Shown here: piece by piece, positions 4,034 through 49,197 of the stretch | How the letters are laid out: each line of letters opens with the position of its first letter | How positions within the stretch are numbered: the first letter of the stretch is position 1 | From: Bacteroidota bacterium | GTDB taxonomy: Bacteria; Bacteroidota; Bacteroidia; Bacteroidales; VadinHA17 | DNA length: 49,197 nucleotides | Assembly (NCBI GenBank): GCA_011049175.1 | Contig: DSCJ01000086.1 | Location: forward strand, 1 to 49,197 | Reading direction: 5' to 3' | The notes under the pieces: generated by a model | What the model saw: the letters and a program-made list of their open reading frames with translations, nothing else | Databases searched by the model: none | Told to the model about the DNA's origin: nothing | Position numbers and translations under genes: made by a program

Positions 4034-4747
4034 TTGAAAACGAAATTCCATATCATCTTCTGGACAGCACTGGTCTTCTTCCTGTGCGATACGGCCGCGC
4101 AACGATCCAGGGTGAAGAATGATCCGGCCTACGACAAGAAACCCCTCCACTTCGGGTTTACGGTGGGACTGAATACCATGGATTTCGGGGCGGTGATCTC
4201 CGAATCGGCCTACCTCGATACCGCCCTTTTTGCCGATGTAACCCGACTGAAACCCGGATTCAATATCAATATTGTTTCCAACCTGAGAATGAATGAGTAC
4301 TTTGATCTGCGCTTCCTGCCAGGGATTGGTTTCGGACAGCGAAACCTGGTGTACTATTCCGACAGGCAGAAGGTTGGAACTGTCCAGAAACTGGAATCAT
4401 CCTACCTGGAATTTCCCCTGGTGGTGAAATACAAATCTACCCGGATCAACAATTACAGGCCCTACCTGCTGGGAGGGCTGAATTACCGGATCGACCTGGC
4501 TGCCAGAAAAGAATATGATGATGCGGAGGATCTGTACCTGCGTTTGAAACGTTCTGACCTGCATTATGAGATTGGTTTCGGAATAGATTGTTATCTCCGG
4601 TATTTCAAGTTTTCCACCGAGCTGAAGCTGGCAACCGGTACCCGTGATATCCTGATGGATGATCCCAATGCAACACATCCTGAGTATGTCAATGCGATCG
4701 GCCGTCTTAGGTCGAATATCCTTATTCTGTCTTTTCATTTTGAATAA
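4034..4747 (+). CDS. porT: PorT-family outer membrane beta-barrel protein
   Basis: 237 aa, matching PorT of Porphyromonas gingivalis in length (about 240 aa). A signal peptide covers residues 1-22 (basic start KTKFH, hydrophobic IIFWTALVFFL, cleavage after TAAQ). The mature part contains LHFGFTVGLNTMDF and alternating beta-strand segments such as FNINIVSNLRMNEYFDLRFL and ends in ILSFHFE with a terminal aromatic-acidic pair common in small Bacteroidota barrels. PorT is needed for type IX secretion/gliding in this phylum. The TTG start is forced: an in-frame stop lies at 4022-4024 and no ATG occurs before the signal peptide. A more general PorT/outer membrane beta-barrel (PF13568) paralogue cannot be excluded without a search. 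Confidence 0.75.
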   Translation: MKTKFHIIFWTALVFFLCDTAAQRSRVKNDPAYDKKPLHFGFTVGLNTMDFGAVISESAYLDTALFADVTRLKPGFNINIVSNLRMNEYFDLRFLPGIGFGQRNLVYYSDRQKVGTVQKLESSYLEFPLVVKYKSTRINNYRPYLLGGLNYRIDLAARKEYDDAEDLYLRLKRSDLHYEIGFGIDCYLRYFKFSTELKLATGTRDILMDDPNATHPEYVNAIGRLRSNILILSFHFE

Positions 4748-4762
4748 CCGTTATTCTTTGCC

Positions 4763-15370: not shown

Positions 15371-15444
15371 GCCGATGTAGCTCAGTTGGTCAGAGCAGCT
15401 GATTTGTAATCAGCAGGTCGTGGGTTCGAATCCCCCCATCGGCT
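15371..15444 (+). tRNA. tRNA-Thr (anticodon TGT)
   Basis: Acceptor GCCGATG pairs with CATCGGC (15437-15443); D arm GCTCAGTTGGTCAGAGC; anticodon stem GCTGA/TCAGC with loop TTTGTAA, anticodon TGT at 15405-15407; T arm GTGGG/CCCCC around TTCGAAT. Discriminator T15444; CCA is not encoded. First of five tRNAs around tuf. Confidence 0.96.
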
Positions 15445-15467
15445 CACGATCCTGATCTATCGCAGAT

Positions 15468-15553
15468 GGGGAGATACCAAAGCGGTCAACTGGGGCAGAC
15501 TGTAAATCTGCTGGCTGATGCCTTCGGAGGTTCGAATCCTTCTCTCCCCACCA
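15468..15553 (+). tRNA. tRNA-Tyr (anticodon GTA)
   Basis: Acceptor GGGGAGA pairs with TCTCCCC (15543-15549), discriminator A, and CCA is encoded (15551-15553). Anticodon stem GCAGA/TCTGC with loop CTGTAAA gives GTA. The long variable arm between anticodon and T arms makes it a class II tRNA, as expected for Tyr. Confidence 0.95.
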
Positions 15554-15559
15554 TTTTTT

Positions 15560-15712
15560 CCTGCCTTCCGGCAGGTACTGAAGGAAAGCAGGAATGATGC
15601 GAGAATAGTGTGGGTTCTTTTCATTATTGATTGCTGGCATGGCTGGAAAAATAAACAAGAGGGGAGCAGGAAATTTTACCAACCCTATGAAATGGCTCCT
15701 CCCTGCCGGAAG
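15560..15712. repeat. Nested inverted repeats in the tRNA-Tyr/tRNA-Gly spacer
   Basis: The 174-base spacer is unusually long for this operon and structured. CCTGCC TTCC GGCAGG forms a tight hairpin at 15560-15575. CTTCCGGCAGG (15565-15575) is also the exact complement of CCTGCCGGAAG (15702-15712), and TTCCTGCCTTCC (15558-15569) pairs with GGAAAGCAGGAA (15583-15594) with one mismatch, so three mutually exclusive pairings are possible. No start codon or family-like ORF explains it. Confidence 0.55.
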
Positions 15713-15727
15713 CCAGGAAAAATATTC

Positions 15728-15800
15728 GCGGGAGTAGCTCAGTTGGTAGAGCATCAGCCTTCCAAGCTGAGGGTCGCGGATTCGAGTTCCGTCTCCCGCT
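15728..15800 (+). tRNA. tRNA-Gly (anticodon TCC)
   Basis: Acceptor GCGGGAG pairs with CTCCCGC (15793-15799); D arm GCTCAGTTGGTAGAGC; anticodon stem TCAGC/GCTGA with loop CTTCCAA, anticodon TCC; T loop TTCGAGT. Discriminator T15800, no encoded CCA. Separated from tRNA-Thr(GGT) by only 7 bases. Confidence 0.96.
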
Positions 15801-15807
15801 CAAGGAT

Positions 15808-15879
<72 letters not shown>

Positions 15880-15937
15880 CAAAGCGTTAAAGAAAAATCA
15901 AAAACAAATAGTGGTTCAATAACTAATTTCTGTTATC

Positions 15938-17128
15938 ATGGCTAAAGAAAAATTTCAAAGAACAAAACCTCATGTGAATATTGGTACCATCGGTCACGTT
16001 GACCACGGGAAAACCACCCTTACGGCAGCCATTACCATGGTACTGGCCAAACAAGGTCTTTCCACAACCATCCGGGATTTCGATTCCATTGACAATGCTC
16101 CGGAAGAGAAGGAAAGGGGTATCACCATCAATACCGCTCATGTGGAATATGAGACCAAAAACAGGCACTATGCCCATGTTGACTGTCCCGGACACGCCGA
16201 CTATGTGAAGAACATGGTTACCGGTGCAGCCCAGATGGACGGTGCTATTCTGGTGGTGGCCGCAACCGATGGCCCCATGCCGCAGACCCGTGAGCACATC
16301 CTCCTGGCACGCCAGGTGAACGTGCCGAAAATTGTGGTTTTCCTGAACAAGGTAGATATGGTGGATGATGAGGAACTGATCGAACTGGTGGAGATGGAAG
16401 TGCGTGAGCTGCTCGAATTCTACGAATTCGACGGTGAAAACACCCCCGTGATCAGGGGTTCTGCCCTGGGAGCCATGAACGGAGAGGCCAAATGGGAAGA
16501 AAAGGTGGTTGAACTGATGGAAGCGGTTGACAGCTATATCCCTGTTCCTCCCCGTGATGAAGAAAAGCCCTTCCTCATGCCTGTGGAAGATATCTTTTCA
16601 ATCACAGGGCGCGGTACAGTGGCCACCGGAAGGATTGAACTGGGTGTGGTGCACACAGGCGACGAACTGGAAATCATTGGTCTGGGCGCCAACAAGCGGA
16701 AAACCGTTTGTACCGGTGTGGAAATGTTCCGGAAGATTCTGGATGATGGAAAAGCAGGAGACAATGTGGGTCTGTTGCTAAGGGGAGTGGACAAGAAAGA
16801 GATCAAGCGTGGAATGGTGCTGGCCAAGCCGGGAAGCATTACCCCTCACACCAAGTTCAAGGCTGAGGTGTATGTGTTGAAGAAGGAAGAAGGCGGACGT
16901 CATACTCCTTTCCACAACAATTATCGTCCCCAGTTTTACCTGCGTACCCTCGATGTTACCGGTGAGATTAAGCTTCCCGAGGGAACGGAGATGGTGATGC
17001 CTGGCGACAATGTAACGATTGAAGTTACGCTGATCTATCCCGTGGCCATCAATGTGGGCCTGCGTTTTGCCATCCGTGAAGGCGGACGGACCGTAGGTGC
17101 CGGCCAGGTGATTGAGATCGTTGAATAA
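15938..17128 (+). CDS. tuf: Elongation factor Tu
   Basis: 396 aa, full length. The GTPase motifs are all present: [10 protein letters not shown] (G1, residues 19-28), the switch I segment [25 protein letters not shown] (G3), [11 protein letters not shown] (G4) and GSAL (G5); domains 2 and 3 follow with [15 protein letters not shown] and the C-terminal [12 protein letters not shown]. It delivers aminoacyl-tRNA to the ribosome. The N-terminus [17 protein letters not shown] is typical of Bacteroidota. Embedded between tRNA-Thr and tRNA-Trp. Confidence 0.98.
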
Positions 17129-17147
17129 TACCATACCGGAGGGGGAG

Positions 17148-17176
17148 AACAGGGTTCCGGAAAAGGATCCTGTTTT
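17148..17176 (+). terminator. Possible partial terminator after tuf
   Basis: AACAGG (17148-17153) pairs with CCTGTT (17169-17174); an inner TCC/GGA extends it past a small internal loop, and the 3' arm runs into TTTT (17173-17176). The short T-run suggests only partial termination, or RNA processing, before tRNA-Trp and secE. Confidence 0.4.
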
Positions 17177-17188
17177 CCGCTTCCGTAC

Positions 17189-17264
17189 ACGGGTGTAGCT
17201 CAGTTGGTAGAGCACTGGTCTCCAAAACCAGGTGTCGGGCGTTCGAGTCGCTCCTCCCGTGCCA
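17189..17264 (+). tRNA. tRNA-Trp (anticodon CCA)
   Basis: Acceptor ACGGGTG with CTCCCGT (17254-17260); anticodon stem CTGGT/ACCAG with loop CTCCAAA, anticodon CCA; discriminator G261 and encoded CCA (17262-17264), both expected for Trp. Position 6 (T17194) faces T17255 (position 67), a single T.T mismatch in an otherwise paired acceptor stem. Directly precedes secE, the usual order in the phylum. Confidence 0.94.
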
Positions 17265-48451: not shown

Positions 48452-48689
48452 ATCGGGGAATGAAGGGTTTTTTTCACGCCAGGCACTTTATATTTTTCTG
48501 TTCTGTCAGTCAGAGGACGAGGGAAGCTAGGCCGACAACTACGTCCACAAATTCGCAAGTTTTTATTAAAGGATTTAATATAATACAGTTATTCGATCAA
48601 TTACTGAAAGAAAGCCATCTCCTGTTTGGGGGAATTTAAATTCGCTCTTACAACTTACTATTTGACATATTCACACCGCCAGCCCCTCA
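48452..48689. other. AT-rich non-coding spacer before the structured repeats
   Basis: No ORF longer than about 40 codons with family-like sequence. It contains a short inverted repeat, GGACG (48515-48519) with CGTCC (48542-48546), and the 13-mer GAAGGGTTTTTTT at 48462-48474, whose complement AAAAAAACCCTTC recurs (to 12 bases) in both repeat copies at 48754 and 49132. The stretch 48550-48670 is AT-rich and featureless by eye. Confidence 0.5.
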
Positions 48690-48819
48690 GGCCGGTTTCG
48701 TTCGCCGCACTTTGGCGAACGACCTGCTTTTTTCAGGGATGAAGAAAGCAGGCAAAAAACCCTTCGGCTGCTGATGCTTTTATGAAAAAACGACGGCGGG
48801 GGAAAGCCTGCCGCGATCC
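48690..48819 (+). repeat. Structured 130-bp repeat, copy 1
   Basis: Hairpin A: CGTTCGCC (48699-48706) with GGCGAACG (48714-48721), 7-base loop. Hairpin B: CCTGCTTT (48723-48730) with AAAGCAGG (48745-48752). A 67-base tail (48753-48819) follows, beginning CAAAAAACCCTTCG and ending GCCTGCCGCGATCC, that could form hairpin C (CGGCGGG with CCTGCCG). Same architecture as copy 2 with different stem sequences. No ORF with recognizable protein. Confidence 0.85.
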
Positions 48820-48921
48820 AAACTCGCCCCTGACGGTGCTGTGCCTGTCAGAAACTCAGACAGGATCGCTGCACAGGCCATGGCGCATTTACCCCCGCCT
48901 GGTTTTTCTCATAAAACCCTC
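48771..48921. repeat. Long imperfect inverted repeat joining copy 1 tail to an inverted partial copy
   Basis: TTTTATGAAAAAACGAC then GGCGGGGG (48778-48802) is mirrored by CCCCCGCC then TGGTTTTTCTCATAAAA (48892-48916), about 22 of 25 positions pairing. Internal stems include GCGATCC (48813-48819) with GGATCGC (48863-48869), and CCTGTC (48844-48849) with GACAGG (48859-48864). The block can fold into one extended cruciform or RNA. Confidence 0.65.
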
Positions 48922-49067
48922 AGAGGCCGGTCTCTTTGATTAAATACGTGGTACTCCCGGAACCTTGCTCCGCAGAAGATGCCTGTTTTTGGAAGAGAAG
49001 AATCAGCTGGTTTGTCGGGCCGGTTTGTTGTGGATTGTATGAAGAAACTTGATTTTTTCATCCCTCC

Positions 49068-49197
49068 GGCCACGGTTTCGCTCCGTTCCCGAAACGGAGC
49101 GACATGCTTTTTTGAGGGCAAAAAAGCATGCAAAAAACCCTTCGTCTGCTGATGCTTTTATGGAAAAACTACGGCGGGGGAAAGCCTGCCGCGATCC
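49068..49197 (+). repeat. Structured 130-bp repeat, copy 2 (cut by the window end)
   Basis: Hairpin A: CGCTCCGTT (49079-49087) with AACGGAGCG (49093-49101), 5-base loop. Hairpin B: CATGCTTTTTT (49103-49113) with AAAAAAGCATG (49120-49130), loop GAGGGC. The 67-base tail (49131-49197) matches copy 1 at 64 of 67 positions. The window ends at the same base where copy 1 diverges into its inverted extension. Confidence 0.85.

Follow-up and report, generated by a model that had tools for sequence, protein, structure and literature searches.

Tandem units of a strongly folding, non-coding intergenic repeat in a Bacteroidales genome and its putative relation to clamped intrastrand-triplex motifs of other phyla

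The two repeats at the end of the window (the whole analysed stretch of DNA, 49,197 nucleotides long, which is contig 19 of a 139-contig, 3.24-Mb genome of 98.1% completeness) are tandem units of a non-coding, multi-copy intergenic repeat that folds strongly. Its layout of two adjacent hairpins, A and B, is shown, at the level of predicted pairing, to recur in other genera and phyla, where the sequences differ and the pairing rules are the same. The comparison also supports the placing of hairpin B within a widely scattered, putative clamped-triplex motif. The explanation favoured here, which is given about an even chance, is that the repeat is non-autonomous, carries a clamped intrastrand triplex as its head, has a PIT/BoxC-related architecture and is moved by an agent acting in trans; triplex formation, mobility and the mobility agent are what we infer from the sequence.

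The initial annotation described two 130-bp repeats, each with two hairpins and a constant tail. Both copies and the perfect pairing of all four stems were found as first described, together with the 67-bp tails (48753-48819 and 49131-49197), which match in 64 of 67 positions. When a 24-bp segment from the tail was searched for with a tolerance of 3 mismatches, the window yielded two occurrences and 100 dinucleotide shuffles yielded none. The figure of 130 bp did not survive as the repeat unit: the contig stops at 49197 within copy 2, the window thus holding one and a half units, copy 1 extends at least to 48930, and the distance between the copies is 378 bp. Nor is the tail separate from the hairpins: it supplies the 5' arm of a third, long one, hairpin C (48766-48927).

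All elements of the repeat are given on the + strand. In copy 1, hairpin A of type I (48698-48722), which is terminator-like together with the T-rich arm of B, is followed by hairpin B (48723-48752), composed of a pyrimidine arm, the loop CAGGGATG and a purine arm, then by the second purine strand CAAAAAA (48753-48759), a candidate triplex third strand, and by the segment CCCT (48760-48763), here called L', which pairs with AGGG of the B loop. Hairpin C of this copy is a 160-nt hairpin whose 3' arm ends at 48927, and its internal loop is made of AAACTCG (48820-48826) and ACTCAGACA (48854-48862). A spacer (48928-49077) lies between the units. Copy 2 comprises hairpins A (49078-49102) and B (49103-49130, loop GAGGGC), both of type II, the second purine strand with L' (49131-49141) and only the 5' part of hairpin C (49144-49197), which is ended by the contig end. 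The AGGG/CCCT loop clamp of 4 bp is present in both copies. Upstream of copy 1 a leader (48569-48689) resembles, in a comparison by eye, what stands ahead of the presumed first unit in other arrays (C12, C37 and C45), "first" being presumed since contig ends cut many of the arrays.

A BLAST search with the 130-bp copy returned 48 matches in the genome, 42 of them at 108 bits or more, and R1, a covariance model built from 13 sequences of the A and B hairpins, returned 65, so the search for further copies proposed at the outset was answered in the affirmative. Units of this genome often stand in direct tandem, and neighbouring units lie mostly 378-381 bp apart, with exceptions such as 351. According to our own count at least 39 of the 55 model matches above 60 bits are located within 900 nt of a contig end, and because matches cluster at such ends the arrays probably break the assembly and the true copy number is higher. 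The arrays sit between longer ORFs, as called by a crude ORF caller, which also places ORFs of 90-175 aa across many arrays; the nearest ORF points into the array at 13 of 18 arrays situated at contig starts (own tally). A coding reading of the tail is probably to be rejected, since 1-nt indels visible in the alignment disrupt its frame in some copies. Short TACGTAG palindromes also recur in clusters in the intergenic DNA of the genus beside the arrays (L061, L064, L065, L327 and array flanks).

Among 30 aligned copies, which define a conserved core of about 230 bp, the unit folds into hairpin A, hairpin B (25-30 bp each), a short purine strand and the long hairpin C. Two A-B subfamilies can be distinguished, type II, to which window copy 2 and the majority of copies belong, and type I, found in window copy 1 and a few others. 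The modules are mosaic, and hairpins of type I are also met on their own. Modularity is also a property of pneumococcal BOX repeats. From the two window copies it had been concluded that the compensatory stem changes mean selection on structure. Changes on both sides do occur in the 30 copies, at 9 of 74 pairs, but seven of the nine represent the same block difference of the type-I copies (4 of the 30, three of the four at one pair) and only two are separate single-copy events. Since the stem changes are largely one type I/II block, selection inferred from two copies does not stand alone; what gains support is the conservation of the fold, through comparison with other genera and phyla. Mispairs in the same 30 copies (34 G.T against 15 A.C cells, 17 against 14 columns) do not settle the choice between RNA and DNA, and a second count gave 4 G.T, 0 A.C and 3 other mispairs.

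The clamp and the fate of hairpin C were followed in the window and 35 loci of its genome, fewer than the 65 model matches, contigs C4, C8, C16, C70, C74 and C92 being left out. In 46 of the 53 parsed copies the loop clamp has at least 3 Watson-Crick pairs (3 bp in 36 of the 53). The second purine strand is A6 in 51 of these copies and A7 in the other 2, and because A6 is its own mirror, in the window family it fits the mirror rule described below and a direct copy equally well. It can be said that the window copies obey the rules of the fold, being at the same time weak examples of them. Hairpin C has been excised at microhomologies of its base in 5 of 47 testable copies; loss between such microhomologies is what one would predict from extrusion of C as a hairpin during replication.

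In distant bacteria the hairpin B motif appears as pyrimidine arm, loop, purine arm and second purine strand, and the pattern CTTACTTTYTTN{2,25}AARAAAGTAAGCAAARAAA was met in at least 120 stretches. Among the matches listed were Proteobacteria, Firmicutes, Bacteroidota and others, namely Burkholderia with its relatives, Pseudomonas, Neisseria, Variovorax, Pontibacter, Selenomonadaceae, Oscillospiraceae, Lentisphaeria, Leptospiraceae and further groups, the organism titles having been read for L158-L237 of the at least 120 loci. The TTAC/GTAA stem is conserved in several phyla. A shorter form of the pattern occurs 1-7 times in each of eight distant genomes and 0 times when read backwards. The distribution is patchy: one viral contig is positive, and the exact pattern was found in none of a sample of 296 genomes of the window's phylum, among them the window genome, in which the stem has diverged. 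The first, long exact patterns gave no match in genome contigs or viral contigs, and the window family itself gave none in plasmids or phages. The A+B and C models were run on 52 of the at least 120 loci, mostly non-Burkholderia; A+B matched in distant phyla with E values down to 1.7e-10, and as these loci had been preselected for B, this is not an independent discovery of B. At two loci (L307, on G063:C144, and L208) the B motif abuts a sequence that by eye is like an antisense 5S rRNA gene, and in L226 (Lentisphaeria, 4300-4760) several B-type hairpins stand in tandem directly after a terminator-like hairpin.

One rule of the fold is the loop clamp. Collapsing the copies left 57 distinct loop/downstream pairs, and in 24 of these the B loop can form at least 5 consecutive Watson-Crick pairs with the 9 nt that follow the second purine strand, against a mean of 2.8 and a maximum of 9 in 1000 permutations, a sample and statistic that include related genomes and ignore kinship. 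Of ten offsets the clamp is seen only at offset 0 (55 combinations with 60 nt downstream). Examples are CTTGA/TCAAG in Pontibacter, TCGCC/GGCGA in Neisseria and Variovorax, and TGCCC/GGGCA in Selenomonadaceae. A second rule concerns the third strand: in 41 distinct arm/strand combinations, again with related genomes included, the mirror of the purine arm fits better in 15, the direct copy in 2 and the two are tied in 24, with a margin of 1-2 positions per case (2 in eight of the 15 mirror cases). A mirror is what a Hoogsteen third strand needs and a direct copy is what strand exchange would need; exchange of the pyrimidine arm with either purine arm, which predicts the direct copy, was accordingly set aside as the poorer fit.

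Hairpin A, with at least 5 bp, stands directly before B in 27 of 71 rows with full flanks (50 shuffles: mean 3.4, maximum 9), and in 19 of 61 when the common Burkholderia-type rows are omitted. Of 122 copies with 200 nt of following sequence, 14 have the loop motif of hairpin C, AACTCR...CTCARAC, downstream of B; it was found 0 times upstream and 0 times in antisense. The C model is convincing in two of the 52 loci, Noviherbaspirillum L182 (E 5.5e-6) and Paludibacteraceae L215 (0.0019), and the sole other locus listed for it is L197 (E 0.7). An enclosing helix P0 (GGGT...ACCC), convincing by eye, proved no better than permuted pairs (mean 2.86 against 2.71).

How the element might work can be outlined as follows. 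On a displaced single strand hairpin B would fold as an intrastrand triplex, the second purine strand folding back onto the purine arm, which on + strand DNA would be a purine motif; alternatively, the same fold could be a pyrimidine motif on - strand DNA or RNA. L' would then pair with the B loop, which would turn the structure into a clamped triplex, that is, an H-type pseudoknot. H-type pseudoknots with triple helices, for example that of telomerase RNA, have a strand in the groove of the stem and pairing of the loop with the tail. The predicted head shares both traits, the single strand laid in the stem groove and the loop-tail pairing, and differs in that it belongs to a repeated intergenic DNA element. 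The folded head may be what keeps the element alive, a trans-acting agent, probably not a RAYT, would copy it to new intergenic sites, and hairpin C and the tandem units would expand or shrink by slippage or unequal recombination at replication. Holder et al. 2015 (PMC4666352) state that RNA does not form purine-motif triplexes but can form those of the pyrimidine motif; the + strand would accordingly be active as DNA, and the - strand as either DNA or RNA.

The same paper provides the nearest known relatives. In its description a class II intrastrand triplex motif consists of a pyrimidine arm, loop, purine arm, short spacer and second purine arm (PMC4666352), and hairpin B has this order with a second purine arm that is mirror-compatible; the likeness to PIT, BoxC and TM_ECO lies in this order of arms on a single strand. 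TM_ECO elements are described there as intergenic, multi-copy and sometimes arranged in inverted pairs, and they are G/C-rich with a consensus of their own (CCCTCNCCC...; PMC4666352), whereas the arms of B are A/T-rich. By eye, hairpin B departs from the TM_ECO/BoxC consensus CCCTCNCCC-N3-6-GGGNGAGGG-N3-GGGNGAGGG as it is printed in that paper (PMC4666352). The paper also finds A/T-rich triplex motifs to be relatively more frequent in scrambled genomes and gives the G/C-rich ones greater weight (PMC4666352), and its passages on PITs describe no loop clamp, hairpin A or hairpin C. With MITEs and the pneumococcal BOX and RUP elements (for which see PMC3049150) the family has in common that it is non-coding, structured and presumably moved in trans, and a possible difference is that no transposase ends or target duplications were found in it.

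No named family could be assigned, and the initial annotation had recognised none either: at the gathering score Rfam recognised in the window only five tRNA genes and in 11 further loci only tRNAs, and in 7 loci searched with E up to 5 it gave three matches below the gathering score, none over the repeat. The five tRNA genes of the window lie at 15371-17261. In the titles and abstracts searched, subscription papers and preprints excluded, no paper was found describing the family, the B or C strings or the combination of ideas presented here. For years potential intrastrand triplexes have been catalogued in bacterial DNA, and no function has been agreed on for them. Because the third strand tends to the mirror rule and the clamp covaries across phyla, the predicted triplex can be tested by simple paired mutations, and, if the mobility is real, the element points to an unrecognised transposition machinery. 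It is even conceivable, though we hold this wider idea to be tentative and rather doubtful, that cross-phylum palindromic mobile elements share a clamped intrastrand triplex as their conserved recognition head and move as folded single strands by means of an enzyme other than RAYT, the window family being their Bacteroidales branch.

Three other explanations have to be weighed against the triplex-headed mobile repeat. An unlikely one is a transcribed 3'-end element, in which A and the T-rich arm of B would form an intrinsic terminator and B and C would protect or process the 3' ends of transcripts. The terminator-like combination is present in both window copies, with 5 sites in the region against a mean of 1.5 in shuffles, and the motif follows tRNA genes directly in all four pattern copies of genome G060 and in two of the four of G061, the other two standing after a tRNA 3'-end fragment (by eye). 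The upstream gene points into the element at 41 of 68 scored loci and at 24 of the 36 with a gene within 150 nt, gene calls being crude and 25 further loci inside an ORF call set aside; this orientation bias is mild, the arrays of the window genome occur on both strands relative to the neighbouring ORF, and the gene upstream of the window array is on the opposite strand.

A quite improbable explanation is that the repeats have no function and no dedicated mobility and are quasi-palindromes amplified passively by slippage, template switching and ectopic recombination. It would account for the deletions at the hairpin base, for the tandem units and for the mosaic modules with their lone type-I hairpins, and template switching can yield paired stem changes without selection. 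It leaves unexplained why several phyla have the conserved TTAC/GTAA stem, a third strand that follows the mirror and a clamp tied to one position.

A REP/BIME-type repeat moved by RAYT, a Y1 transposase, was among the possibilities raised at first and is now very improbable: the view of a structured, dispersed palindrome family was right, and the family is palindromic, modular and intergenic, but the Y1_Tnp domain has 0 matches in the window genome (an absence which at 98.1% completeness is not absolute) and no linked gene of the RAYT/TnpA_REP kind was found at copies elsewhere. Among related genomes Y1_Tnp is frequent, with a match in 47 of 60 including the congener G001, and in 20 regions taken from around such matches there was one significant A+B match, which lies in L138 at 3.2 kb from the Y1_Tnp gene; L138 also has a weaker one, at chance level (E 2.7). 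The flanks inspected around relatives' RAYTs hold other palindromes, for example CCCGTAGGGACG five times around the G001 gene (L142), and four of the eight distant motif-bearing genomes have no Y1_Tnp match. REP, BIME and RAYT systems (for which see PMC2817692) are similar in that their palindromes are modular, dispersed between genes and at times grouped in inverted or tandem sets, whereas the units here are about 230 bp with several hairpins and no RAYT was found in the genome. As to size, a REP palindrome measures 20-40 bp, a range that holds hairpins A and B singly (25-30 bp) and is exceeded by the core of about 230 bp. Three orphan CCCGTAGGGACG REP palindromes are present in the fetched stretches of the window genome (L032, 5411-5422 and 5913-5924; L034, 5728-5739). 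No mobilising gene was recognised near the copies, the largest cluster of neighbouring genes comprising 6 loci with an ABC ATPase (by eye) in a clustering that left out 50 loci listed as Burkholderia-like.

The arrangement of the heads varies between groups. Many loci of Proteobacteria carry two A-B heads in facing orientation at a distance of about 320-500 bp, and in L182 hairpin C lies between them; inverted heads, the arrangement to be compared with the terminal inverted repeats of a MITE, were seen in Proteobacteria and none in the window genome. In ten such pairs the halves align at 54-77% (best in L158 and L212) by forced global alignment with no shuffled control, and the low end of this range need not mean homology over the whole length. 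Near tRNA genes a different arrangement was noted: in L299 (G061:C255, 352 and 547) and L300 (321) units of about 195 bp, each after a copy of about 20 nt of a tRNA 3' end, are repeated beside a full tRNA-Ser gene, which looks like repeated insertion at the tRNA 3' end.

Closer to the window, BLAST detected the family in 2 of 59 other genomes, G001 of the same genus and G021 (one locus), and R1 with strict filters in 7 of the 59, with 16 matches each in G037, which is of another family of the order, and G011, 3 in G020 and one each in G001, G003, G021 and G023. In most of the R1-positive relatives hairpin B reads like CTTACTTTTTT-loop-AAAAAAGTAAGCAAAAAA. Four array sites were compared in G001; two of them have both flanks on one contig and both are without the element, which suggests a turnover of copies within the genus. 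At these two sites neither a target-site duplication nor a clean empty site was definable, the intergenic DNA being too diverged. At a contig start of the same genome, the core of the element (L061, G001:C143, 1-360) is enclosed by an inverted repeat, almost perfect and about 100 nt long on each side, which is either a real giant palindrome or an assembly fold-back.
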